64,000 nt of DNA from Chytridium lagenaria (lineage: Eukaryota > Chytridiomycota > Chytridiomycetes > Chytridiales > Chytridiaceae): assembly GCA_025449115.1 (NCBI GenBank), contig JAHLKC010000039.1, positions 62,001-126,000 on the forward strand. Direction: 5' to 3'. How positions within the stretch are numbered: position 1 is the stretch's first letter; each line of letters starts with the position of its first letter. Positions 1,795-19,392 of the stretch are shown here, in pieces. The position numbers and the translations under genes are program-made. The notes beneath the pieces were generated by a model, which did not search any database, was not told where the DNA came from, and saw nothing but the letters and a program-made list of their open reading frames with translations.

Positions 1795-1858
1795 GGGTTA
1801 TATCCCATAGTACAAAACCGACAACAACTAAAAAAATTTCGTCGAATTTGGATATAGT
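1795..1858 (+). repeat. Left terminal inverted repeat
   Basis: It begins GGGTTATATCCCATAG and passes through ACAAAACCGAC, AACTAAAAAAA and TTCGTCGA. It matches the inverse complement of the right end over about 60 bp, at about three quarters identity by eye. Confidence 0.85.
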
Positions 1859-2399
1859 TTGCCGTAAATCGGCGTATGCTGCCGCTTTTGCACCAAATTA
1901 ATTCGTTGGTCACACAATATTCGCCACTTATTAAATGCGGCAGAATACCGCCAAATACGTAAATTTTTTCATCATACGGGGAGCTGAATTTTCGGTCACG
2001 CAATGGAAATTTCTTAATTTTACAGAATTCAGACAGTACCACAGGATTTGCATCGAACTATACTACAGCGCCGTAAACGGCCATCTACGGGAGTCTTCTG
2101 TTTCTCCACCATATGGACTTTACCGTAGCCTAAAGCTTTTAATCTGAATATATATTTTATACAGTCGTACTTAAAAATTATTTAGACTCCTAAGCCACGT
2201 GTGCATAAAGAAAACGTTCTTCCTATTTATCCACATACGCAGTGTTCAGTATACAAACATTGACGTCAGACCGCAATACTCTTTTCCACAAAGGTATTTT
2301 TACCTTTTTTGCTTTTGTCAAACTATACTGATTTGTGGTCATATTCTTTGTGTATACGCTGACTATCGCAGAATGTTGACGCTGCCAATGCAGGTATAG

Positions 2400-2545
2400 T
2401 ACGTTTTGTCGCGTGTACGTACGCTTACGTGCGTACACGTGCGTTTGTGTACGCATGCGTACGTGTGCGTACATTTGCGCACGTAAATGTAAGACACGTG
2501 CACAAGTGTACGTAAACGTACGCAAACGTGCATGTACGTACGTAT
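2400..2545. repeat. CG-rich micro-repeat tract (ACGTACG/TGCGTAC)
   Basis: A 140-bp stretch of alternating purine-pyrimidine hexamers built on GTACG, ACGTG and TGCGT. It lies between the left TIR and the 3' end of the minus-strand cargo gene. The same vocabulary, with CCGTA and ACGGCC, recurs at about 1855-2110, 3490-3660, 4420-4520, 11,000-11,080, 11,995-12,115, 13,010-13,090, 13,905-13,990 and 14,160-14,900. It occurs only within the transposon. Confidence 0.7.
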
Positions 2546-2719
2546 AGTGGAATTAATGCTTACTTCGTGAACGTTCCTATACATACTCTTGTATTTTATT
2601 TTTGAAGATGTTCACGATTTTTTCTCAGTAACTTCAAAAATAAATACATTCTGCACATAACTGGGATTTTGATAAAATATATTAACGTAATTTTGACATC
2701 AACGTACAGCACCTTTAGT

Positions 2720-5131
2720 TCAACGTCTATAATTCCTGACGTTGTACCTGTGAGCTTTGTTAGGAGATATGTCGCTATCCAAAGAGGTGTAACTCAAGTT
2801 TGTACGCGAACGGTCGCGTAAACGAGATGTTGATCCCCTCAAACTACCACGTGACAGGCTTCTAGCTCTTCCCTTGTCAGGAGAAAAGCTAGCTGAATTT
2901 CGAATACGCTGAGACCGGCGAGGTGGTGACGGGGGCAGTTCCTCAGATAAGATTTGTCGAGAGCTGCGAGGTGGGGACTCTGAAAATCGTGGCAATGGTC
3001 TTACTCCTTGTCGGCGCACGCGGTTATTGGCTACAGCAACGTCATGCTCAAAAGAAGCTGAGGAGACTCTTCCTTGTGCTTTGCCATGAAAACAAATTAC
3101 TAAAGTGCTGATGGAGTGTATGAAGCAAGAAAAACTTATAGTTGCTGCTGTTTGTTAAGGCATCCACAGATCCCCTAATAGTTTCAAGTTTTTCGTCGAA
3201 GTTGTCAAGTCTTTCCTTCAACGCCAAAAGAGAGGATTCAAAACTTTTCTGCATATTGTCTTGCGCTTGACGTAGATAAGTAAAGTTAGATGCAAGCGTT
3301 CTCTGAGTCAAGTTGTTTTCGTGTATGAGAAGGACGAGACTGTCCTGTTGTGCAGCAGCGGTCTGCAAATTCTTGCCGCCAACGCTAACAATGAAACAGT
3401 CGTTCAGCCTTTTGAGCTCGTTAACACCGAACCCTAAATCAAAATTAAGTTAATTTTAATATTTTTAATTGTCAGCCAAAACATCAAATAAATGCACAGT
3501 ATACAACAGTATACTACCACACACTACAGTATACTGCCGCATACTACAGTATACAAACGCACACTACATTATATAACCGTATTTAGCCGTACATCATTGT
3601 ATGCGGCAGTTTACCACCGTTACCAGCCGTACAATGACTATACACCACAATATACCTTGAATCCTTACTGGAACATGCTTTTGAAAGCCTGGTGACATGT
3701 ATGCTTTTGCAGCCAAAGCCTCAGGGTACGTAGCTAATAAGACAATACCAGCGTCAATCTTTCTACTCATGTTATCAGCCTGTTTTTTAAATTAGTTTCG
3801 GCCCTAAACCGATAGCAATGGGACTGACCGTCTGAACAAGATGCTCCAATGTCGACGGAAAAAGGAGTTGATGTTAGAGCTTGTCGAATTAGCATTTGAA
3901 AATGCATTCCTTCTGTTGTTTGACTGCTTCACACTCTCTATAAAAGTAGGGTGTTAGCAAACTTGTTAGATCTTTCCCACCAGTATACCATCATGCATCA
4001 CTTGACCACTCCGAATCTTATATGCTCCTTCAATGGGACAGGAAGAGAAGGAGCCGGTGGAGCACGTATTCTTGATTCCTCGTTAGCGGCATCAACCGCC
4101 ATCATGCCTGCAGTAACAGTTTCGTTGTCGTCTTCGCTGTAAGTTGGCTCCGAGTGGCTTCTGGACCCTGCAGCTTTATTAGATAAATAGTTAATTTACC
4201 GTGTCAGTGAAGATGATTTGGATTTGAGTATGTTACAGAGTTCTCACCAAGGTTGTATTGGAACCCCCTTCCCCCATGTTCATCATCATGTCCACCAAGG
4301 CTCATCGGTATGTTGATCTGTCTGCACAAGTCAAAAAGCTCTGTTGTCAAACCATCGTATGCCTTTAAAATTTTCTTCCAACACCGTATGATGCTGTCAT
4401 ATAAAAAAAGTTGACAACCGTACATAAACGCACGTTACCGCAAACAACCATAGAATGACGCATTAGACCATATATTGCCATAAATAAACGCAAACGGCCG
4501 TATACCACAGCCGTTAAGGTGATTAATGAAATATTTCAATATCTTGAGTCCATCGAATCGTAAACTTTTAAAACAGGTTTGTGGTCTGGTACGTAGGTAT
4601 ACGTATACAGCTAGCTGCTGCGGTAAGCTAAGATAGGTTTATTTTATCACATCAACTTCAAACATTTGCCTTTTGGCCATAGACTCTAAAATATTATAAC
4701 TTCATGTGGCGCTTCTATATTTTATTGTCTTGTACAAAAGACGATGGAATACTTGCGTACCCCACCGCCTTCGTATGAATCACTCATTTGGTTGTATACA
4801 CTGTCACAGACGGTTTAGTCAGTAAAAGAATAACCATAGTGAAAGTCAAAGTTACGTCTGATAGTGCGACATTAGTATTACGTACGTAAAAAAATTCGAC
4901 GAAGAAAATGTACTGTCCATGCTGTGCTGAAGACGTCCCTCCGTCACGTCTAGAAAGATGCTTGAGAACCACATTAGAGATGACCATGCTTCCAGTGGTG
5001 CTCTCATAACCTTGCTTCTGAAGCTTGATAGTGAAGCGACCATTGAACGAGTCTTGACTATGGTTATTGGCGGCGGTTCCCACGCCCAAGCGCAGCCCCC
5101 CTAGCCCAGCAGACGCAACGACAGCCATCAA
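2720..5131 (-). CDS. Transposon cargo gene 1: multi-exon coiled-coil protein
   Basis: I do not recognise this protein. Codon-consistent minus-strand blocks separated by GT..AG-like gaps suggest one gene. The N-terminal block (about 5131-4860) starts MAVVASAGLGGLRLG and contains FTIKLQKQGYESTTGSMVIS. Middle blocks are at 4425-4204 (KAYDGLTTELFDLCRQINI..GGHDDEHGG), about 4140-3990 (SEDDNETVTAGMMAVDAANE) and about 3780-3660 (MSRKIDAGIVLLATYPEAL). Then comes a coiled coil at 3368-3048 (LKERLDNFDEKLETIRGSVD). The C-terminal tail (3019-2720) is basic and Ser/Arg-rich with repeated RSQRIR-like patches, and stops at 2720. It is divergent from cargo gene 2 with about 165 bp between them. A basic tail after a coiled coil would fit a DNA- or virion-like packaging role, but that is speculation. 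Exon ends are approximate. Confidence 0.5.
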
Positions 5132-5295
5132 CTATAGGCGAGTCTCGCTCAGCAAAAGGCACCTACCATATAGAAACCAGGATGGCGGAAAAAAAGTAAG
5201 ATGGTGTTGCTTAAATCTCTCATTTCTTTAGTGTTTTGGGGTTGCGAAGCAACTTTTTAAGTTGAGCACAGAGGAGAAGAAGGCCATAAGATAGG

Positions 5296-8200
5296 ATGAC
5301 GGCGGAGCAGAAGACGTTATCCGGAGCAATTCGAATGATTCCGCATTTGATTGAAGATGCAGCCGTAGCTGAAGCATTACGTACGAAGATTACCGAGGTA
5401 GGCAAAGCTCTGTTGTTTTAGTGATATTGAAGTTGTTAGGCCAAAGAGAAGTATCTTGCCGCTTACCGTGCTGGGTACACTCAACAAAATCCGAACGTTG
5501 CAAGCTATCAAGTCACCGATAACAATCAAGTTCGCATTGTTTGGAAGACAGGAAAAGAATTCGAGGAGGTACTGCTTTTTTTTCCATACATTAATCTTAC
5601 TTCGAGGGCGAGGAGCAACGCAGACCTAGCTCTCCAAAGCTTAGAGTCGGTAGCAGTAAAGCCATCTACGTAGAAGATGACAGTGACAACGACGAGGTCC
5701 ACGCGCAATACAAGCCTGCCTTGGGACAGTACATTGAAGGTTTGACGACAATTTTATTTAAACTAATGGGTATAGAACCTAAGATTGCCTCAAAAGGTCA
5801 TCCACTTGCATTGCGGGTCGACGTGAGCAAAATTCGGAAGAAACAAGAAGAGGAGGAGGCTGAAAGCCGACCACGAACGCCATCGGAAGAATACGAGGAT
5901 CGACCCGTTAGAAAAGGTGCGTAATCTTCCGCCCTCCCCTGCTTTTATTTACTGACAGATGGGGTTTTTTCAACCGTTTACCGCCGCTTACTCCTTTTTT
6001 CACCGCATTTTTTGTTTATTTTTATTTTGCGCTTACTGAATTTGTTTAGGAAAAGCTCCAGCGGCAACTTTACAGCAGAGAAGGAAGGGTAGGCTTTAAC
6101 TTTTTACTCAGCTTTGCTCACCACGCTAAAAGAGGAAATCGAAGGAGGACCGCCATCCGAGGAGTATGAGGAGGAGCCGCCCGTTGGAAAAGGTGTTTTA
6201 AAACGTTACATATATATATATAACCGGAACGTTTCAATGTGATTTTATATAGGTAAGGCTCCGAAGGTCGTGTTGCCGCGGACAAAGAGAAAGGGTAAGA
6301 TTTATTACTTTATTTTTAAAAAACGCTTGCTAAACCAAAGGGCAGAAACTGTTGAAGAAGAGTTCCGTCGAATTCATGAGGAAGCGGCAGCAGCTGGTGG
6401 GTTAGATTTATTTAGCAATAAGCCGTTTATTAAACTTACCGATTATATGGAAGCACCGCCAGAAGTGAGAAAGGTACTTAAATCTCCGAAAAGCCCCAAA
6501 TCTCCGAAAAGCCCCAAAATAGGTGCGTAAATTTATTATATTCCTCGAAAACCAAAATAAAAACATGTGTGGTGGCGGGCTTGCCGACTTTAACCATGTT
6601 TACTTTTTCCCGGTGTCTACTCCAGTTTTAGCTTCTCTAATTTTCAAACAATTTTAGCCAAGGAACAGCACGAAGAGGTACCGATTTCTCCGGCAAAGTC
6701 AAAAGCGGGTAAGTACTTTTATTGTTTTACTTTCGTGCCCTTTTTTCTTTTGTTCATGTCGTAATTGATATCATTCTATTTTTAGTCCATGAGACGGTGC
6801 CGACGTCGCCTAAAGCTGTGAAATCATGTAAGTGTTTTATATTTTTTTTGTTATCACGAACTGGCCATCTTTATGGCTCTTTTTCCTTCACAGCCGTTTG
6901 CGTTTCCTTTTCGGTCGTTTGCGCTTTAATCTGGTTACTTACCCCCGTTAACGGCCATCTCCTCTATTCTACTACTTTTTCTGACTTTATATTACTCAGC
7001 CAAAGGTTTGCCCGTTTCAACTAAAGGCAAAGGGAAGGGTAATTATTTATGAGGTTTATTAGAAATTAACCGTTTACTTGCTATTGTTTCAGGGCCAGAG
7101 ATTCCTTCGGGAGAAGGTGAGTATTCAAAAAATAATTTTTCTGAAGTACCCTAATTATTTGTAAGGTGTCGCCAGCTCTTCAAAGGAGCTGCCGACGTCA
7201 AAGGGAAAACAGGTCGCAACCGAAAGTGAAGGTGAGGCGGTTGCTGTCCACCTGATGTACATTTTCGCTAATGTTTGGACAAAAATTTATTCTTATTTCC
7301 AATTTTTTTTTTTAAAAAACCAGAATCGCGAACTGCTACCCCGAAACCGAAGTGTGAAATCTCTGGGCACGCTCCGTGGACTCTAAGTCCATAGGAGGAG
7401 ATCACAAGATGTCATTACATGTCTAATAAAGATTAGCAGTAACAAGTCTACTCATTAAAGAGCTATTACACTCAATGTTAGTAGTATGAATTTAAGGTGT
7501 GAGGATGAAGTGATTCTAAAGGGGTTTTTCTAAGGGTTTCCAACAATGCCGATCAATGAAGATACTAGGGTGACAAAGCTCTAAGCTATGCCTAACAACC
7601 ATTCTGGTGTCAATCTACAAGACTCTTCCAACAACTTATTTATATAACCCATTACCTATGCAAACCAGCAGTCAAGTCGTATTTCCACGCGCTCCCAGGT
7701 GGTGGAGTCGTTTCAGGACTCAATGGCATGCATAAGAGGGGAAATAGTGTAGCGTACTTGCCTGTCATCGTCCATGAGCATCAGGAGGGGCATTGAAGGA
7801 GTTCTCATTCAAGAGCATGTCACAACATCCCGTGCCATGGTACACTTTACAACTTAATTAAAACAGGGCCCATTCCAAGTAAGAGGCAGATAGAAAGACA
7901 TGGTGTCATATAAGCAATGTGGGGGGAAGATCATGCACAAACAGGACAGGATATGATGATTTTTGTGGGGACAACTTCTCTCTCAGTTTATTATTAATTT
8001 TGCTGCTGTAAATAAGTTAGTCAAAAAAGGATATAGTAAACAACAAAACAAACAAGAAACGAGAAAAATATAAACAATAAACACATAAACCCTATATACA
8101 TAAGTACGTCTGCTTGTTCCTAACGCGCTCATATAACTCTAAACAAATACGCATTAGTGACGTCAGTCGTAATTTGACAACGAAGTATCATCATATAAGA

Positions 8201-8752
8201 GAACACGTACTCTTGGAAATATAAGTGACGCCTAGGCTAAGACAATCATTTATAGTCATTATATCTTTTATTTATAGTAAAATATATCACGTGAAATATA
8301 GGAAAACCTTCAATATTTCACAGAAGGAACAGCGGAAACCGTCATCGTCAACGTGGAGCACCCAAACGCAAACATCAGGAAGAGCGTGCTGGTTGGAGAG
8401 AGGATAAAGCACAGCTAATCTTTATGTAGCTCCTCCAGCAAAATCGAAAAAGGCGAAAGAAACGCCTGAAATCCCGGACTGTAGTTTAGCGTTTAGTTTC
8501 TAATTTTATCCCTTAATTATAATTATTTTAGTCGTAACAAAACAATCCTCAAGGACGAACTGTTATCATTTGCCTTCGGGTTGGGGTTGAAGTTAACTTC
8601 AAATAATAGCAGGGAGGAGATTTGGAATGTAAGTGACTTTGAATATTATCTTTACTAAGGAAATTAACATTATTTAGGAACTGTCGCAGCTTTGGATGTC
8701 CCTTTATGAAGGAAGACCCCTGCAAGGATCTACGCCGATAAAATTGGTTTAA
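5296..8752 (+). pseudogene. Transposon cargo gene 2: KSP-rich multi-exon protein with SAP-like C terminus, split by a solo LTR
   Basis: It starts MTAEQKTLSGAIRMIPHLIE at 5296. Exon 2 begins AKEKYLAAYRAGYTQQ after a 42-nt intron. Next comes an acidic exon (VEDDSDNDEVHAQYKPALG). A run of tiny exons then each ends in Gly/Lys-rich text (KGKAP, KGKGKG) and encodes Ser-Pro-Lys repeats (SPKSPKSPKSPK at about 6490-6520). The last exons (about 8533-8752) contain LKDELLSFAFGLGLKLTS followed by EEIWNELSQLW, which resembles a SAP DNA-binding helix-turn-helix. The stop is at 8750. A solo LTR at 7353-8322 sits in the exon reading TATPKPK/EQRKPSSS. Removing it with its 4-bp duplication keeps the frame. Several KDZ-group elements encode SAP domains, so a DNA-binding partner is plausible. 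The function is unknown. Confidence 0.6.
7353..8322. repeat. 970-bp solo LTR (TGTGAAAT..ATTTCACA) with 4-bp TSD
   Basis: The 8-bp terminal inverted ends are perfect: TGTGAAAT at 7353 and ATTTCACA ending at 8322. They are flanked by the direct repeat GAAG (7349-7352 and 8323-8326). Removing it restores the cargo-gene frame. Terminal TGTGA and a 4-bp duplication are shared with the larger LTR element at 22,616-30,148, but the internal sequence is different, so it is another family. No coding capacity was seen. Confidence 0.85.
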
Positions 8753-9105
8753 ACAACCAACATGGTGACACGTAGTTGTTTAACTTTTCCAGATACATAG
8801 CTTATTTGTACTTGAAATATCCACCTATTGCAGGATTTTGCGGCATTTGTATAATAAATTCGTCTGTTCTATGTATGTTATTAAATGCGCTAAAAACAAT
8901 AAAAAAGTGCAAATATATTACCGGCTTATATTGCCACGTGGATACATCTAAAATTTTGATATAACTTTCTATGTGTTTAATGCACACCCGCAAACTGGGT
9001 CAGACGCTAGTGCAATACCTCAAGTGCAAGCTCTTGACGTGTTGAGGCTACAAGTAACGTGAACTGGCGTCTTATGCTCCTAACCACTCGGTATCGGTGG
9101 ATTAT
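8753..9105. other. Spacer inside the transposon
   Basis: AT-rich spacer between cargo gene 2 and the next solo LTR. I see no convincing coding sequence. It ends with the target duplication ATTAT (9101-9105). Confidence 0.5.
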
Positions 9106-9723
9106 TGTTGAGTGAACTTCTTATTATTTCTCGTTATAATCTTAACTTAGACTCTTTACTCGTTATACTTTTAAGCAGAGTCTCGGGGAAAAACTTATTG
9201 TTCACTACTTTTATTCAAATAAAGTCCCTTTGCTTATATACGCGTTTTCTTCCTGAAACGCTCCCTCAGCGGCTAACGCCGAATCTCGCGTCATAACTAA
9301 TCAAAGACGCGTAAAACCAATTTAACCCCCTCAATCAAGCGGCACACGTACCGCACTTAAAACCAAGCCTTCAGCGGTCAACCAGCCGCTACCATAACAG
9401 GCAAGTGGGGAAAGGGAAAACAAACTTAAACAAAGGGAATAAAGAAATCTCCAATCACATCAATCAAACTCGTCAAAGTCAAAACTTAAACTTTGAACGC
9501 AAGTAAAAACAGAACCGACGGATGTGTACTAACAAGAATATAAAGAACCGGCGGAACGTAATTAAGATGAAAACATCCAAAGGAAACAACAAGTGAATAA
9601 CAAGGGAAAGGTAGGAACCAAAACTAAAGTCCCTGACGCGTCGGGAACGCGTCCAATGAAGTCCAGCGCGAATTCTCGTGAAGGTAAGTCATGACGCGTA
9701 GCCCAGAACGCGTAAATCTAACA
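9106..9723 (-). repeat. 618-bp solo LTR with TSD ATTAT
   Basis: It begins TGTTGAGTGAAC and ends ..AATCTAACA. ATTAT lies on both sides (9101-9105, 9724-9728). Read on the minus strand it shares a style of ACGCGT motifs and a GCGCTGGACTTCATTGG-like stretch with the copia A LTR. It is probably a diverged member in reverse orientation. Confidence 0.82.
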
Positions 9724-9728
9724 ATTAT

Positions 9729-10082
9729 CGTAATTTATATATAAATACGGGATGTTCATCGGCATAGATATTTGTAGCGACGCGTCAGCGTCTTAAAACC
9801 TTCACCAATGTGTTCCTGGATGCCAATGCTTTTCAAAAACACGCCATTACTCTACCCACTCTTGTAATGTTGCTGATGTATATTTGATTGGCGTTTGTTT
9901 TTGGATGTAAACGGCAAAATTATATAAGGTTGAATAAAATGACAATTTTTGGTAGCAAGTTTTTTTTTTAAGATTTTTCACTCCCGCATACAACAGTAAA
10001 TGTGTAACATCGGTGGTAAGCGGTTGTATGCTGTGAAGTACATGTTTATACTGAGGTATGCGGGTCTGTTTTTTGTTTGCAG
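9729..10082. other. Spacer/upstream intron of the transposase gene
   Basis: No supported coding sequence. It is AT-rich with a poly-T run near 9960 and CCGTTT/GTATGC micro-repeats. It ends in a strong acceptor (TTTTTTGTTTGCAG, ending at 10,082) before the first clear transposase exon. The promoter and first exon of that gene may lie here. Confidence 0.4.
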
Positions 10083-13000
10083 AATTATTTTATTTGCCAT
10101 GACCTTGTCAAAATCCACGTTGAAAACGTGATTGTCCGTGATTTTAACGGAAGTACCATGTATTCTGCAAACTTGGGGACCTTGAGAGATAGGCCCTATA
10201 CCAAATGGGAAAAATACATGCAAAAGAGGTTAGCCTTGAAGGGCCTAGTTTATACACGCGGGAATTTAGGTATTCCTTTATGGCTTGCCGTTTGCTGATG
10301 ATCTTAAGATGCATACGTCGAAAAGGAGCTTTCGTGGACTGTACTTGACTCTGGTTCCGACACATCCCGAAACACAAGTACTCCTTTGCATGGGGCCACC
10401 TTTCAGGATGCTTCTAGTTTACAAGCAGCAATAACGGAATACACTTTGATGGATCCATATGGTGATGTTACAATTCAGGATGGTGAAGGAATGGACAGGG
10501 ATATACCGGCAGATATCAACATATCTGGATCAGACCGAATTGGATACGGTCCAAATGAGTATGATAACCAATTCTAGTATGTCATCTAATGTATTGCACC
10601 ATAGCACTGAAGAATACCGACGAAAAGTGTTGATTGATTACAAAGAAAGTATTCTAAATCAAGAAACCACTGCAGCGCCTCGTCCCAACAACGTATTCAT
10701 TCTTCAAGACTATAGCGCCAATCCTAAAGTGAATCAGGTATCGACGTCATGATCTAACAGCTACTGATATTTGGAAGAAAACTAAATTCGTTTCGCTTCA
10801 AATATACAATATGGGGATGGAATTGGAGCGAACCGAATGCAACTGCACTCGTAGAATATCGACTTGTATACATAAAGACGTTATCCCCTTTGTTAAAGAT
10901 CACATTAAATATCCGCAAGGTGAGCTTAGTTTTTTCTCGGACGACACAGTTGTCCACAACAGCGGTATCAGACAAGTTGTACGCTTACCGCTAAATACGT
11001 ACGTTTACTAGCGTTGTTACACGCATAAAGCCGCATTTGTTTGGTTGTTGCCATAACTGCACGCATACTGTTTTCAGCTTACTGCACCTTTATTAGTGTA
11101 TAGCTGATCGCAAGCGTTTTTTTTTTTTATCTTCCACACAGATACAGACCCGTTTATAAGTCTTCACTTTGACAAGAGATTTAAGATATTCGCGGTTCTT
11201 GATGAAAGAATTACTACTGGATCGCAGTGGCTTATACTTCGCATGTTCATCAACAAAAGCAACAAGGTGGCTTTCCACTGCGAAGGTATCCATTGCAGAA
11301 ATGGGAAAGTCAACGTCAGCCCATGTTATCACATTGATGTCCTACGAAAAGCTGATCCAAGTACATTAAGCTTCAGTCAACAAGTCGTATCTCCTGAAGA
11401 GGACGAAAAAAATGGTTCGGTGTCTTGGAAGCCAATACCCCCACCGCATTATTCACTTCTTGAACGTGAGGCTAGTTTTTGGCCTCCAAGAATCTTCAGG
11501 GCTGGAGAAGATGCGATTCTGAACCCTGGCACTGTCTTCTACCTTGAAGGTGACTCTCAATGCGTCTGCGGATTAAAGATACGAAATTGCGATTCTGAAA
11601 AAAGATTTCGGTGGTGTATGCTATACACAGAACAGGGTGCCGTTCGCTGCTTTATTGAAACAGCAAAATGCTCTCGTTGCCCTCCAAGGTATAACAGATT
11701 TATTGGGCCTGACCTTGGAGATCGGGGAATATTCAATAAGAACAATTTCTGTCTTATAACGCACTTTTTCCTGGACAAGATAACGGAACTGATTACCTCA
11801 ACAACATTCTCCTTTCACGCTTACTCAAAGCACTTACAGTCAAACTATAATGAGTTTGGTCGGGGAAGGTGCCTGTACAAGCCTCCTTCTAGTAAAGTCA
11901 TATCTGCGGTAAGTCATCACTTGTCATAAATTTTTTTCCATTCCATTCCTGCAAGCTGGCCAGGTACTGCTTGACCATCTGGATCAATGATCCAAATGCC
12001 CGCATACTAACGTTAACGGCGGTAATACACCGCACATAAACGTATGTTAACGTTTGCGGCCGTCTGTTTAAGTGTACAGCCGTAAACGGCCGTATGCGTT
12101 AATTTTGTACCTACTTCCGGGAATCCCTAACTTTTTTTTAGGCTTGGTTTTCCTTTCGTAAGATACAAGATTTAACCATGGGCATGGATATACAATGCCC
12201 ATTCTGTAAGGAAACTGGCTACGATATGGTTGCTTGTGACGGTATCAGCATTGGTTATCAAGAAGACAAAAGACAAGCAACCTCATCCCACCAACATTCA
12301 TCGATTCATACAGCAGTGAGAACAACACTGTGAACTACTTAGCGTCAAAACAGGTGAGAAATTCTTTTGCAGTGAATATTCTAATATGGCATAGTTTGTT
12401 GCCTAGCAGAAAAAAGGCAGGACGAGAGTTCTGCGATATATTCAAGCATGTGCATAACGGTGTTACGCGTCAAATGAAAGCAGCTGGAAAAGAGTTGGGA
12501 TTGCTTTTAAACGTATACTGGGACAATGCACCGCGTTTCATGGCATTCATACTTAGAGATGAGATATGGACCCCAGCTGAAATAGCGGCGCTTAGAACTT
12601 TGCTTAAAGTAGTGAGTATATTTCATTGTGCCGTATTACTCTTTGACCTATCGTAACATCTATAAAGATATTCTGTGAACAGTCAGTTGTTACAATCATA
12701 TTGCCTGTCGGTGATAAATGTCTTCAGGAATTAGAACGCTGGGAGCAGCTAGATGTGCAGGAGAAGTTGACTTTGATTGATGATCTTCGTCAAAACGTAC
12801 CTTCAGTCGGCAATTTGTTATTTGAGGTCATTGTTGTTGGAAACAACACATATTTACCGGAAGAATTCATCAAACTTGCTCAATGGTTAAGAAAGAGAAG
12901 GAATGTTGTTGAGAGCCAACATAGCCGCCATCCTGTAGCGGATCCAAAGACAACCGAACATGGAGATTATGTGAACAAAAACTGGCAAAAAGTAAGTACA

Positions 13001-13804
13001 GAAGCCGTACAAAACCCCATGTAACCGTATACAACCGTATACTGTTATGTACCTTTGTATACTGCCGTTTACGTTTGTGTGCGCCCGTCTTTGGACTCTG
13101 TTGATTAACGCTTTCAAAAGACAGGTTCCTTTTACTTTTTACCTGAAATACGGCAACGTCCACGATATCTCAACCTTGGACCTGCAGACAATCTACCTAC
13201 AGCAGCTAAAAAGGGGACAACGGAAGCTGACGTTTGTCCTAAATATTACGACAGGCAGAGGAAGGCTAAATCAATGACGGCCGGAGCAATGGTTTTTTTA
13301 TGTCGTCATCGATTTTATATTGGATTTCACCTTTTTCCTAAAGCTGAAAGCATCAATGATGTTTTCGCAACTCTATACACAAGGTACCATACAATTCAAC
13401 AATTTAACTCTAAATCTTGCAGGTTTGAACAGTGCCCATCCATTTGTGTTGGTGATAATAATTGCCATGCTGCAGACTACTGCACTTTGCGGGAGTACGA
13501 ATTCTTCAAAGATTGTCGATTTGTTATAGACGATTTTCACTCAAATGCTCACAGGGGCTGTTCCGCTGCTTCTCACGCAAAACACTACAGAAAGCATATT
13601 AAAATTGGAGATCTTAATACGAGCTACACCGAATCGGCCAACCACAACATGGGAGTCTTGCGTCAAATGGTTTCATATATGACTGAAGGACATGCTATTA
13701 TGACTATATTCACCTACATTTGTATGGCAAATAGGACGGTTTGGAAGGAACTGTCAGTGAAGGGTAGCGAATTGTTTTTAAAAAAGTTTGCATGTCGACG
13801 ATGA
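10083..13804 (+). CDS. KDZ-like transposase with CxC cysteine clusters (multi-exon)
   Basis: Likely the transposase of the 13-kb element. The N-terminal exons (10,083-10,920) include an acidic stretch and a Cys cluster (ECNCTRRISTCIHKD). The middle exon (about 11,140-11,910) has CEGIHCRNG, then CVCGLKIRNCD, then a CSRCPPRYN knuckle followed by FFLDKITELITSTTF. This order matches the cysteine-cluster (CxC5/CxC6-type) regions that accompany KDZ transposases. A short exon then reads IQCPFCKETGYDMVACDGIS. The C-terminal exon (about 13,260-13,804) carries GAMVFLCRHRFYIGFHLFPK, NDVFATLYTRY, CTLREYEFFKDCRFVIDDFH, HRGCS and ESANHNMGVLRQMVSYMT. Those match the RNase-H-fold core I recognise from this family: acidic DDFH, then a Cys, then an ESxN..M segment. 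It ends at 13,802-13,804. Frames shift at several places. Some shifts are introns with micro-repeats inside them and others may be indels, so activity is uncertain. Confidence 0.75.
11990..12115. repeat. Intronic CCGTAAACGGCC micro-repeats
   Basis: Inside a transposase intron, short copies of CGTATG, ACGTTAACGG and CGTAAACGGCCGTATGCG follow one another, several of them palindromic. They are the same vocabulary as the tracts near both transposon ends. Confidence 0.65.
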
Positions 13805-14091
13805 AGAATATATATTGTCTTATTACAAAAGTTAGTTTACAATGACTACGTTGAAATGGAACCGTAAAATTCAAATGAGCTGCAAAAGTAACTTTCAAAC
13901 AACCATCTGATGCCGTAAACGGCCGTTACCAATTTCTTTTACATTAGACAAACCGCCGATCACGCCTGTTTACGGCTACGCGTCATTTTTTATGGCCGTT
14001 AGTTTTATGAATGAATATGATATAATTTATATTAAAATCGCTGACTTTAGAAACAAATGGCATAACCCTCCAAACATAACGCTTCTATATG
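13805..14091. other. 3' flank of the transposase gene
   Basis: Non-coding stretch with two micro-repeat clusters (CCGTAAACGGCCGTTACC near 13,914, and GTTTACGGCTACGCG near 13,970). It is otherwise AT-rich and precedes the 284-bp tandem repeats. Confidence 0.5.
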
Positions 14092-14770
14092 TTGGAGTGA
14101 TTAGGTAGTCCTGAAACATTTAATGCATTCGAGCGCAAAAGTAGATTCATGCCGATAGCAGAAGGAACAGTATACAACCGTAGACGGCCGAAAGCGGTTA
14201 TGATAGAATATCCGTCTATAGCCGTCTACGGCCGTTTGCGGCCTTTAGTTTCTGTCTAACATTTAAAACAGGATTTGCTTGCTGACCGTGTTGACAGGTG
14301 GCTGTCAGTTAAAAGATACAAGGTTCATCTTTTGCTATGCTGCTGAAGATTAGAAGAGCTATGCCATGGCAAAGATTGGAGTGATTAGGTGGGGTCCTGC
14401 ACCATTTAATGCATTCGAGCGCAAAAGTAAATTCATGCCGATAGCAGAAGGAACAGTATACAACCGTAGACGGCCGAAAGCGTTATTATGAATATCCGTC
14501 TATAGCCGTCTACGGCCGTTTGCGGCCTTTAGTTTCTGTCTAGCATTTTAAAACAGGATTTGCTTGCTGGACCGTGTTGACAGGTGGCTGTCAGTTGAAA
14601 GATACAAGGTTCATCTTTTGCTATGCTGCTGAAGATTGAGAGCTATGCCATGGCAAAGATTGGCGTGATTAGGTGGAGCCTGAACCATTTAATGCATTCG
14701 AGCGCAGAAGTAGTTTCATGCTGAAAACAGAACAAACAGTATACAGCCGCAAATGGCGGTGTACGATTAA
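14092..14770. repeat. 2.4 tandem copies of a 284-bp subterminal repeat
   Basis: Copies start at 14,092, 14,376 and 14,660 (exact 284-bp spacing) with TTGGAGTGATTAGG or TTGGCGTGATTAGG. Each contains ATTTAATGCATTCGAGCG and, in the first two, GTATACAACCGTAGACGG plus CTATAGCCGTCTACGGCCG. The third copy is cut at about 110 bp. They are adjacent to the right TIR and absent from the left. Subterminal repeats of this type can be transposase binding sites. That role is inferred. Confidence 0.9.
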
Positions 14771-14892
14771 ATTTTTGTGCAACCAAAAAATTTTCTAATG
14801 CTTCCGGCTAATTACTGCCGTTTTTGTCAAAGCATTGATGAAACTAGATTGGTAATGTATTTTGGTAACCGTAAATAACCGTATGTTTACGA

Positions 14893-14956
14893 TACTGTCA
14901 TGAAAATCGACGAAGTTTTTTTAGTTGTCATCGGTTTTGACCTTGGTATTTATCCC
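14893..14956 (-). repeat. Right terminal inverted repeat
   Basis: On the minus strand it begins GGGATAAATACCAAGG and continues CAAAACCGATGACAACTAA and AACTTCGTCGA, mirroring the left end at 1795-1858. It is followed outside by the duplicated ACCCATCC (14,957-14,964). Confidence 0.85.
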
Positions 14957-17310
14957 ACCCATCCTGATTTAATAGTCTTTCTCCCTTTTGGTCGGGGAAC
15001 CAACCTCCATATTCCCATCTCAACCAAACTCTTCATTTCCTCCTCCATCGCTTTCCTCCACTCGTCCTTCTCCTTCCTACCCATCGCTTCCTCGTAGGTT
15101 TTTGGTTCGTCGTCATCTTCTAACGATGCGGTGTTTGCACATGGTCTAACCGTCCAAAACTCTCCAGGTTTTTTTGTTCCGTGATGACCTTCGAAGGGAT
15201 GTCTCATATGGTTCATCCAGGTCTTCACGGAAGTTTGGAACTCTTCTTCCACCGGATCGACCAACCGTAGGTGAGTGAGGTTTCTCTCTTTCTTCGTCTT
15301 CATTGTCTTCGCGATTCGGTGTATGATAACTAACATTATCATCTTCGTCATCTTCAGACTCTTTGTCGTTTACTGCCGTATCAACTTCACTTCCACCAGA
15401 GCTTGACGAGTCTGTGGAGTAATCCTGTAAGTCTAGGTCGTTTTTCCACTCTTGAACCTCCCCTTCAAACTTTGATTCTCCCTTCTCTGCTTCTGCCGCC
15501 ATTACCCCTCGTTAAAAAATCACTGACTTGCTTCTAACGTAGTTTGTTGCGCTATCGACTATGGTAAGGAAGTAACGTGCACCACCATTTGACGCGGTCT
15601 TCATAGGTCCAACGATATCAACATGGATTTTCTCGAGAGGGTCTTTGGCTTTCAACTCGTCGGGTTTGTCAGGAAATATTGTCCTCGTTATTTTCCCATC
15701 AACACATCCCTCACAAAGATAAGTGTCTTCTTCATTCGTCATGTTGACCCCCTTCGCTACCTTCATTAACTTCTTCACTCCCGTTTCTTTCCTAGGTGAC
15801 CCATCCGCAAGTGCCATTGGTGCGGTGTCAGAGACTTCTCGGCTTTTGCTGAGGCGGTGCTTGGCTTGAATTCGATTACTTGATCAAGGTAGATAAGGTT
15901 CTCTTTGCTGCTGTAGGTGAACGTTGCAAGTGCTTGCGCTGACGGTTCTTTCTTTGGTTTAAGGTTGTATCCGTCATCCTTCGGAAAGATGTCAAGATCC
16001 TTCTTTCTCGCCATCCCAAGCGAGATCAGGTTTCGTCCGATGTTTGGTACGTATAAGACGTTCTTGAGTATTAACGTTCCCGTTCTACCGCCATTGCTAA
16101 TCTTCACTTCACAGTCACAAAACTCCACGGGATTCAAGATTGCTGTTGTTGTCGGCAGTGCTGATGTTGCACTGGATGGAGCGGTAGTTTGACAGGATGT
16201 TGCGCTGGAACGTCATGTGGTGAGTGGCTCCAGAGTCTAACATCCATCTAGTGTCTCTAGTCTGCGGACCGCCTTCCGAGCTCATGTTGACGGTAGGTAC
16301 TGCTGCAACGAAAACCACAGGATTTCCTCCGTTGTTGTTGTTCTGATTGTTGTTCTGGTTTGCCAGGTTTGCGTTAGGTCCTCGATTCCAACCACCTCGG
16401 CCTCACCTCCCCTTCCCGTCCTCCTTGACCACGGAAACCTCCGCGGCCTCTTCCACGGAAAAAGCCTCTTCCTGCAGCCGCAGGTTGAGCTTGAGGTTCG
16501 TTGTCTCTTTCGTTTCTGTTGTCGTTATTTCTTCTTGCCCTCCAGCAATCTCTTGCTAAGTGACCTTTCTTTCCGCAATTGTAGCATTCTCGGTCCTCGC
16601 CGCCGCGGTGTCTTTGTTGTTGGTTGTTGTAGCGTCCCGCAGCGTGAGCCTGGGCGCCTTCGTTCTCTTCATTTTCTTTCTTCTCTCTTTCAGTTTCGTT
16701 TCATGGTCTAACAGCTTTCCGACGACATAGACATAGTCAGCCTCGGCTTTGGGTTCGTTCTCAAGAAGGTTGACAATAATGTCGTATGCTTCAGGGAGGG
16801 TCGTCAAGAGGATGGAGATGTGTTGCGGGGTTGCCGTGTCCTCCCCCGCAGCCTTCAGTTGCTGAATGGTTGACGAGACTTCCGCGATGTAAGTCTTCAA
16901 GTCGTCTCCTTCTTTCATCTTCAAGTTCGTGAGTTTGCGTCTAATCGCGTTTCTGTTCGTCTGAGCCTTTCTCTCATAGGTCTCGATAAAAATTTTATCC
17001 CAAGTCGCCTTTGCCGTGGATTCGTCCTGTATCAACGGTAGGATGATGTCGTGAACTCTTGATTCGATTCTTGCTTTTGCTTACATGTCCAAGTCTTCTT
17101 CTTCTAACCTAGTCTTCTTTTCGGCATTTGTAGGCGTGTCAACGACTGCATAGGGTGCATAGGGCGTCCAGCCCTTTTCGACGATCTTCCAAAGGCCTTT
17201 GCCTTTCAAGTACCCGATCATATGCGGTACTTCCAGATGTGGAACTGTGTCCCATCAAACATCACAGGTTTGTCGTCGTTCTCTTTTGTCATCTTCTCGT
17301 GTTGACAGCT
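14957..17310 (-). pseudogene. Copia B: gag, protease, truncated integrase and start of RT
   Basis: Read on the minus strand from about 17,310. Gag begins MTKENDDKPVMFDGTQFHIW with the typical KYRMIGYLKGKGLW block, and has an in-frame stop after LEEEDLDM. The UBN2-like part ends near 16,556. A CYNCGKKGHLARDC zinc knuckle follows. The protease has LDSGATHHM (16,200s). The GAG-pre-integrase block is LTPHQWHLRMGHLG. The integrase start is CEGCVDGK..HVDIVGPM..RYFLTIVDSATNY. The frame then jumps to the Ser/Asp-rich linker (about 15,500) and to PKTYEEAMGRKEKDEWRKAM..KTIKSGWV at the transposon boundary. The second integrase Asp and the Glu are therefore deleted. With frameshifts, stops and this deletion the element cannot be autonomous. 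Confidence 0.9.
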
Positions 17311-17664: not shown

Positions 17665-19392
17665 TCCTCAAATGGAATGAGGGACATCATGAAGTATTCG
17701 GGAACATACGCGCCAAGAACCTTCCAAAACGACTTTCTCAAAGACCTCCGACAAAAAGCCCTTAACGCCCACCTAGCATGGCTCCATGCCACTCCTGCTG
17801 ACCGCCAATTCTGCTGGTACTGTTGAACCTCCGCTAATCAAATCTACCGTACAGCCGCCTGCCGGCGAGGCCTTAAACACTTTCAACTATGCGTTGACAA
17901 ACTCGCCCAGGACCACGCTACCGCCATCAAAATCATCTCCTGCAAGAAAGCCCGAAAAAAACCGCACCTCCTGCGCCCTCGACCTCACCAAGCTTGAAGA
18001 ATACTCCAACTACTTTGCTACTACCTTTGCTGCACACCCAACCGGTACTGAAGCGACCAACAATGAATACCTTCACTCCACCGACCCCCACCGACCCCGC
18101 CCACCAGCCCCCCTACCCCCATGGATCTCCCTCGACACGACTAAATCTGCCCTCCATTTCTCACCCTCTGGAAAAGCCGCCGGCGAAGACGGCGTTTACG
18201 GCAAAATGCTCTCCATTGCCTCCCATACCCTCACCTCTGCCCTTACCCTTCTCTTTCAAATAATCACATCCTATCTCTGCACCCCCACTCCATGGTCACA
18301 CGCAAACGTCGCCCTCGTTTACAAAGGCAAAGGCCCCTAAACCAAAGTTGCTAACTACCGCCCCAGTTCATTAATGTCCATGCTCCGCAAGACGTTTGAG
18401 GCCGTCCTCAGACCCCCACTCGACAAACGCATTGTCCCAACCCTCGACAAAGCGCAAGGTGGATTTCGCGCCAGCCGATCTAGCCTTGCGCAAGTCATGG
18501 TCCTCCACGAAGCAATAGCCACCAAACCGGAACTCACCTTTGTCTATCTCAACATTAAAGCCGCATACGACACCGTGGACAGACGTATTTTGTGGTCGCG
18601 TTTTTCTCTCCTTCTTGGAAACGCTTTGGAAAAGATGAAACTGACTCAATTTGTACCCCTTCTTTGAGCTCTCTTTGATATTAATTTAGCCTACCTTCTA
18701 GTACTCGGGTACAAGTCAATACCGATCCCAGTGTTGAGAGGGCTGATCCAAGGTACATCAGCTGCGCCGGTCTTATTTAATTTCTTCTTCAACCCTACCA
18801 TCCCGCCGTTGTAATCTTCACTAAATATCTTCCCTTACACCCCAACCTCCGTCTTACTTCACAACTCCCGCTTTAACTCCCTACTATTTGCCGACGTCAT
18901 TGTTTTATTTCACCTTATCCTACCCATACTCCAACTCCTTTTAAATGACTTTTCGCGTAGGCCCATTCGGTGGGACTGTGTTTCAACGCCACAAAGACCA
19001 TCTCGGTGGCTCCACGGATCATCGCGCCGCCACTGAGACTAGGACCAGATATTAGCTACTTTGGAATGATGATGGCGGGGAGAGGAGTCAACGTAGTTGC
19101 ATCCCTCCTACCACGGATTGCTGCAGCCCGGGGCATGTTGGATGGATGGGAGCAATTAGAATGAACAGCAACAAATCCTTCATTCGCCCAACCATGGAGT
19201 ATGGCCTTAACCTCATGCCCTCAAACAACCCACCCTTGACGCCCGACAGCGAGTCCAGAACACAACCTTACGCTGCGCTGCATCTTTGGAGTCTCCTCAA
19301 AAGCCAGTATCTCCGCCCTCCACCACCTCTCCAACCTCCAAACTATGTCCTCTGGCAATCATACCCTCAACGCCTCCTTCTACTACCGCCTC

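Follow-up and report, generated by a model that had tools for sequence, protein, structure and literature searches.

A multi-copy transposon family with a CxC4, probably KDZ-type, transposase in the chytrid Chytridium lagenaria, and a related element that carries a TET/JBP gene

The window analyzed here is a stretch of 64,000 nucleotides of the Chytridium lagenaria genome (contig C39:62001-126000), and all searches of the genome cover 41.9 Mb in 356 contigs. Positions 1795-14956 of the window form one element of 13,162 bp with terminal inverted repeats (TIRs), whose limits can be set to the base. Judging by its ends and its relatives, this interval is a copy of a multi-copy family of cut-and-paste TIR DNA transposons. 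Very probably it is a copy of the CxC4-transposase branch of the KDZ transposons, here found in a chytrid host. More tentatively, and with slightly less than even confidence, we propose that the family is part of an undescribed two-component KDZ lineage in Chytridiomycota, which would combine a CxC4 transposase with a partner gene near the left end (gene A) and exchangeable further genes, and in which one family would carry a TET/JBP gene.

The element is flanked by an exact 8-bp target-site duplication (TSD), ACCCATCC, at 1787-1794 on the left and at 14957-14964 on the right. A pattern scan places the left TIR, of the GGGTTATATCCCATAG... type, at 1795-1849 on the forward strand and the right TIR, of the GGGATAAATACC... 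type, at 14903-14956 on the reverse strand. The left end reads GGGTTATATCCCATAGTACAAAACCGAC... and the right end, in reverse complement, GGGATAAATACCAAGGTCAAAACCGATGAC...; the first bases of the element are GGGTTATATCCC and the last are TATCCC. The inverted repeats are imperfect: 37-nt core arms (1813-1849 and 14903-14939) are 89% complementary, and the terminal sequences of the left and right ends differ from each other, each being conserved. The original prediction, which had described TIRs at both ends, an 8-bp TSD and limits defined to the base, is in this respect borne out by the repeat arms and the exact duplication. When the element is removed and the flanks are joined, a single copia pol frame runs open through the junction, and in the left flank an open reading frame (ORF) at 863-1201 gives an RVT_2 match of 3.3e-27. 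The element was therefore inserted within a copia pol gene. Excision had further been said to restore the copia frame exactly, which holds across the junction itself, but a stop codon follows 34 codons beyond it, inside the 120-base flank. The 5' part of the host copia element, up to the break in pol, lies at 14965-17080 on the reverse strand, with the remainder at 1-1786.

The genome holds many further copies with the same TIRs, the search that had been suggested as a check together with the prediction. A search with the first 606 bases gives at least 20 other matches over essentially the full query length (18 at 96-98% identity, the remaining two at 90% and 78%; a lower bound, with 40 of 47 candidates scored), and a search with the last 607 bases gives 12 others that extend to the end, each starting in the first 27 bases. 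Pattern scans allowing up to 2 mismatches return 52 left ends, against 0 with the reversed-pattern control, and 34 right ends against 1. Both ends could be read in three copies other than that of the window, namely those on contigs C229 (14,005 bp), C221 (13,164 bp) and C155 (7,385 bp, short through an internal deletion). At these ends C221 and C155 each show an exact 8-bp duplication of their own, with sequences differing between sites, and C155 has one additional base within the right repeat. In C229 the 8-bp duplication is separated from the left end by 4 additional bases. Directly inside the right end of the window copy lies a 286-bp tandem array (14092-14749, 2.3 units), of which the copies C229, C103 and C156 contain more units. 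A stretch of 696 bp spanning the last two transposase exons is 100% identical in 4 loci, the window included; given such near-identical copies, the family appears to have moved recently. Copies at C185 and C138 have an identical left flank, which probably reflects either a segmental duplication or one site that entered the assembly twice. Separately, a 6.6-kb element lies between a left and a right end at C22:15913-22532, with a relative of gene A and a piece of transposase.

The transposase gene occupies 10083-13804 on the forward strand and consists of 10 exons as determined by comparison with the copy C229, its 5' end being provisional. Joining the frame-open exons taken from C229 yields a transposase of 944 residues. 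The large exon contains the CxC4 cysteine-cluster domain (PF18717, 11534-11866, forward strand), which matches Pfam at 8.5e-25 with 87.5 bits against a cut-off of 26.9. With residues 240-944 as query, a single protein was found at E <= 10 among 4704 candidates: P0007, a CxC4 protein of the basidiomycete Infundibulicybe gibba (CxC4 at 4.1e-44). It is homologous over 91% of the query (E 1.1e-45) with the same motif order, though at an identity of only 26%. In canonical KDZ proteins the motifs follow each other as YD.AC ... FH...H..C ... E. In the alignment with P0007, the candidate first catalytic Asp of ACDGISIG (12238-12240) is paired with the Asp of WDGVTLAF, and the candidate second one, in VGDNNC (13454-13456), with that of IYDFAC. 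Likewise, FHSNAHRGC within the motif DDFHSNAHRGC (13529-13561, the FHxxxHxxC pattern) is paired with FHSKDHTKC and the candidate catalytic Glu of TESAN (13631-13633) with that of GECGN; all four features lie on the forward strand. The second Asp, the FHxxxHxxC pattern and the Glu are invariant in two multiple alignments, and the first Asp comes from the pairwise alignment with P0007. Matches of the C-terminal exons to proteins number 6, all of Chytridium lagenaria, and no relative came up when viral contigs were scanned with alignments of the transposase and of gene A. The ratio of nonsynonymous to synonymous differences per site (pN/pS) between the window (C229 for one block) and a relative on contig C114, described below, is 0.19-0.33 in four exon blocks, with saturated synonymous sites, which suggests purifying selection on the transposase in this comparison.

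Two alternatives bear on what the element is. An assembly artefact, or inverted repeats arisen by chance, deserves practically no credence as an explanation: several copies do extend into contig ends, but the three other copies with both ends read, the differing sequences of their 8-bp duplications and the near-zero control counts in both end-pattern scans already refute it. More substance can be given to the idea that the transposase represents a separate superfamily, with nothing but the CxC4 zinc cluster in common with KDZ proteins, so that 'KDZ' would be a label by association. A number of results weigh against a KDZ assignment. The KDZ match (PF18758) in the last two transposase exons is weak (E 0.0098, 16.0 bits against a cut-off of 26.6), the 17 rows of a PF18758 scan of the genome all lie outside the window element, and P0007 has no PF18758 match at E <= 10, within the limits that the HMMER filters set on weak matches. 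These three would be expected of a separate superfamily. The structure model of P0007, made with a view to the RNase H-like fold of KDZ transposases, has a predicted local distance difference test (pLDDT) score of 37.4, too poor for a fold comparison. Against a separate superfamily stand the PF18758 matches at E <= 1 in 6 of 7 aligned sequences, the window counted (the best at 1e-5), the span of the window's own match (profile positions 73-213 of 217), the same order of D, FHxxxHxxC and E in P0007, and the 8-bp TSD, which is the length reported for Zisupton and Dileera in PMC12730594. A PF18758 match is also precomputed for the relative P0002. We therefore regard a separate superfamily as quite improbable. 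The assignment to KDZ is based on the CxC4 domain, the PF18758 matches of the aligned relatives and the motif order, not from the window's own KDZ score, and we would file the family as a divergent KDZ branch of which the window exon misses the PF18758 cut-off. The original prediction of a KDZ-type transposase thus fares well as to the Cys clusters and the DDFH..ESAN core, which fit KDZ; of the CxC and KDZ profile searches proposed with it, the former is clearly positive and the latter stays below the Pfam cut-off. Loci over the PF18758 cut-off do occur elsewhere in the genome, for example at C185:10206-10748 and C32:32899-33426.

Beside the left end lies gene A (2723-4305, reverse strand), a multi-exon gene read toward that end. 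Its exon joints were chosen among GT-AG options and its start codon was set by comparison with the NCBI model P0008. The product has a Ser/acidic N-terminus, a conserved core (ADNMSRKI..LLATYP..ELKRLND) and a basic Ser/Arg-rich tail, and a helical part is seen in a low-confidence model (P0009, pLDDT 44.4). A protein search gave 9 matches at E <= 10 among 7992 scored candidates, all of them from Chytridium lagenaria, and relatives within the same genome go down to 31% identity. In the genome search 106 of 160 candidates were scored, and the rows listed were merged by hand into at least 46 loci. Among these listed loci, 38 of 46 have a left end at a distance of 0.92-2.53 kb with the gene antisense to the end; none of the 46 has a nearby left end on the same strand. 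These comparisons indicate that gene A is a conserved accessory gene of a wider set of elements sharing their ends. Given its retention in relatives with shared ends, a transposition partner or a regulator of the element is its most likely product.

The absence of an obvious TET/JBP gene had been called informative in the original prediction, and the window element does lack one: a PF12851 scan of the genome returns three rows, at C114, C351 and C46, and none of them falls inside it, although a divergent type could be missed. The row at C114 belongs to a complete element of 17,908 bp, running from its left end at 1028 to the right end at 18935, with both TIRs and an 8-bp duplication, AGATGATG, on each side. 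It contains a homologue of gene A (41-47% by tblastn) and a CxC4/KDZ transposase that has about 65% identity to that of the window element and the same exon blocks. Its Tet_JBP ORF (15437-15961) scores 37.7 bits against a cut-off of 34.9, and the solved relatives found for this ORF are CcTet entries alone (E 0.3, HxD aligned). Just inside the right end, at the position of the 286-bp array of the window copy, is a 255-bp array of 8.8 units. On these comparisons the C114 element is a TET+ sister of the TET- window family in the same genome. Since this sister carries Tet_JBP, it is the window family that lacks TET/JBP, and neither the host nor the lineage as a whole; the meaning given to that absence has to be narrowed accordingly. 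The third Tet_JBP match, at C46:79215-79472 (24.5 bits, below the cut-off), lies outside one of the family's copies, about 6 kb from its left end.

Two further alternatives concern the additional genes. The TET/JBP gene of C114 could have been brought in by the insertion of another TET-bearing transposon and not be part of the lineage. It is situated 4.1 kb downstream of the transposase, and the short contig C351 (10.6 kb), which holds a second copy of the TET region, has no CxC4 or KDZ row; both would agree with an insertion. That second copy, however, is joined by the 255-bp array (TET region and array at 97-98%) and by a matching right end in the expected orientation, and an array followed by the right end is also the layout of the window element, which makes the insertion unlikely in our estimation. 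Somewhat less unlikely is that gene A is ordinary captured cargo, which happened to sit near an ancestral left end and was spread along with it without any role in transposition. Gene A has no Pfam domain above the cut-off, as might be expected of cargo. Within the family, moreover, its constraint looks weak: between the window and 16 copies there are 8-11 nonsynonymous and 0-5 synonymous differences (161-209 codons of two exons). The counts at the CxC4 loci (48 of 51 profile rows, second pieces having been dropped) weigh against the main reading of the element: within the 25 kb upstream, gene A is detectable on the opposite strand in only 10 of 48 cases and a right end in the expected orientation is found within 15 kb in only 11 of 48, one more having the wrong orientation. 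Broken contigs and the sensitivity of pairwise searches may in part be behind this low pairing. Captured cargo is in turn hard to reconcile with the place and orientation of gene A, which are kept in 20 of the 27 listed loci outside the window family (19 family loci set aside) at 31-63% identity in the rows used, nor does it fit the pN/pS of 0.31-0.53 for the conserved exon between three families, a ratio obtained with synonymous sites near or at saturation. Gene B, by contrast, is found only in copies of the window family. We thus continue to favor gene A as a partner or regulator. The prediction had listed two unknown cargo genes; of these, gene A is conserved across the wider element set, while gene B was seen in this family only.

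Gene B (5296-8480, forward strand, with an approximate 3' limit at about 8480) has many short exons and encodes an acidic, low-complexity protein in which no Pfam domain was found. In the genome search for its relatives, the lowest row within the family's copies is 64% over 28 residues. In the window copy the gene is interrupted behind 7352 by an insertion.

This insertion is one of several signs that the window copy has decayed. It measures 970 bp (7353-8322), has TGTGAAAT...ATTTCACA ends, resembles a solo long terminal repeat (LTR) and is flanked by GAAG; it lies among the last exons of gene B and belongs to a dispersed repeat for which the genome gives 40 other rows. A second solo-LTR-like insertion, of 615 bp with TG...CA ends (9109-9723), is absent in C229 and C221. 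Together the later insertions account for about 1.6 kb of the 13.2 kb of this copy. The transposase gene is also broken: a 1-nt deletion at 12262-12275 (forward strand), just behind the first catalytic motif, disrupts its frame. The deletion is common to the window and C156 and absent in C229, C221 and C155. A programmed frameshift was considered and rejected, as the deletion is absent in 3 of the 4 other copies that cover the site. With a broken transposase frame and two solo-LTR-like inserts the window copy is decayed. It is unable to make a complete transposase, so any movement must be served by other copies.

The window copy also has a mosaic relation to C229. In bins of 300 bases, the regions of about 9895-13795 (transposase) and 5395-7195 (gene B) are 100% identical, a few gaps aside, whereas elsewhere (the left part, 8320-9000 and the right end) differences reach about 5%. 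Compared with C221, up to 4% difference is seen in one bin of the transposase block. The complete identity with C229 is not due to selection on the protein, because the introns are identical too; gene conversion, or template switching during gap repair, would explain the mosaic. Outside the element, an RVT_1-like ORF at 18341-18667 (28.5 bits against a Pfam cut-off of 29.6) is perhaps a piece of another retroelement. An Rfam search of the window at gathering scores gave no match.

The KDZ groups were reportedly named in a PNAS paper of 2014. Two-gene DNA transposons such as MuDR, En/Spm and PIF/Harbinger encode a transposase and a second conserved element protein. By this description alone, the window family resembles them in having a second conserved protein beside the transposase, and differs in that gene A has no detected domain. 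Within KDZ, the family shares with Zisupton the TIRs and the 8-bp TSD (PMC12730594, in excerpt) and the KDZ-type C-terminal motifs, and it is set apart by its CxC4 cluster, the weak PF18758 match, the antisense gene A near the left end and the chytrid host. The TET+ Dileera of rust fungi have the same 8-bp TSD, and their association with TET/JBP is that of the C114 sister; the window family is without TET/JBP, and the Dileera hosts reported in the same excerpts are Pucciniomycetes. Kyakuja of mushrooms belongs to the same superfamily and is likewise associated with TET/JBP. It is however described there with a 7-bp TSD, CA..TG termini and no TIRs. The window family has none of these traits and shows instead clear TIRs and the 8-bp TSD of Zisupton and Dileera, a TSD length found at C114 too.

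According to the excerpts of PMC12730594, TET+ DNA transposons occur in Pucciniomycetes, Agaricomycetes and Pezizomycetes, and the word chytrid is absent from its text. A report of a TET+ transposon in a chytrid was not found in the literature searched, subscription journals being mostly outside that search. As far as the excerpts of PMC12730594 and PMC13297926 go, such elements have been reported only from Dikarya. The former also states that the fungal CcTET oxidizes N6-methyladenine (6mA) as well, and the latter, again in excerpt, that 6mA is a regulatory mark in early-diverging fungi.

Taken together, a course of events can be proposed. The transposase would consist of a zinc-binding N-terminal part and a DDE core, with zinc binding and catalysis as their presumed activities, and would be expected to cut at the GGG...CCC ends. 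A staggered insertion of 8 bp would follow, by which the window copy entered the copia pol gene. Gene A, beside the left end and read toward it, would serve as a transposition partner or regulator, and the remaining space would vary between elements: gene B in the window copy, a TET/JBP oxygenase gene in C114, whose product might act in demethylation.

If this is true, transposon-borne TET/JBP genes would extend beyond Dikarya, and the chytrid TET/JBP enzyme could act on 5-methylcytosine or on 6mA. The element and its relatives also allow KDZ transposons of the CxC4 type to be described to the base in an early-diverging fungal phylum, together with a second gene that travels with the element ends. 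With both a TET+ and a TET- family in a single genome, the idea that transposon TET/JBP proteins protect from silencing by DNA methylation becomes testable, since the two can be set side by side within the same nuclei for methylation and copy number.

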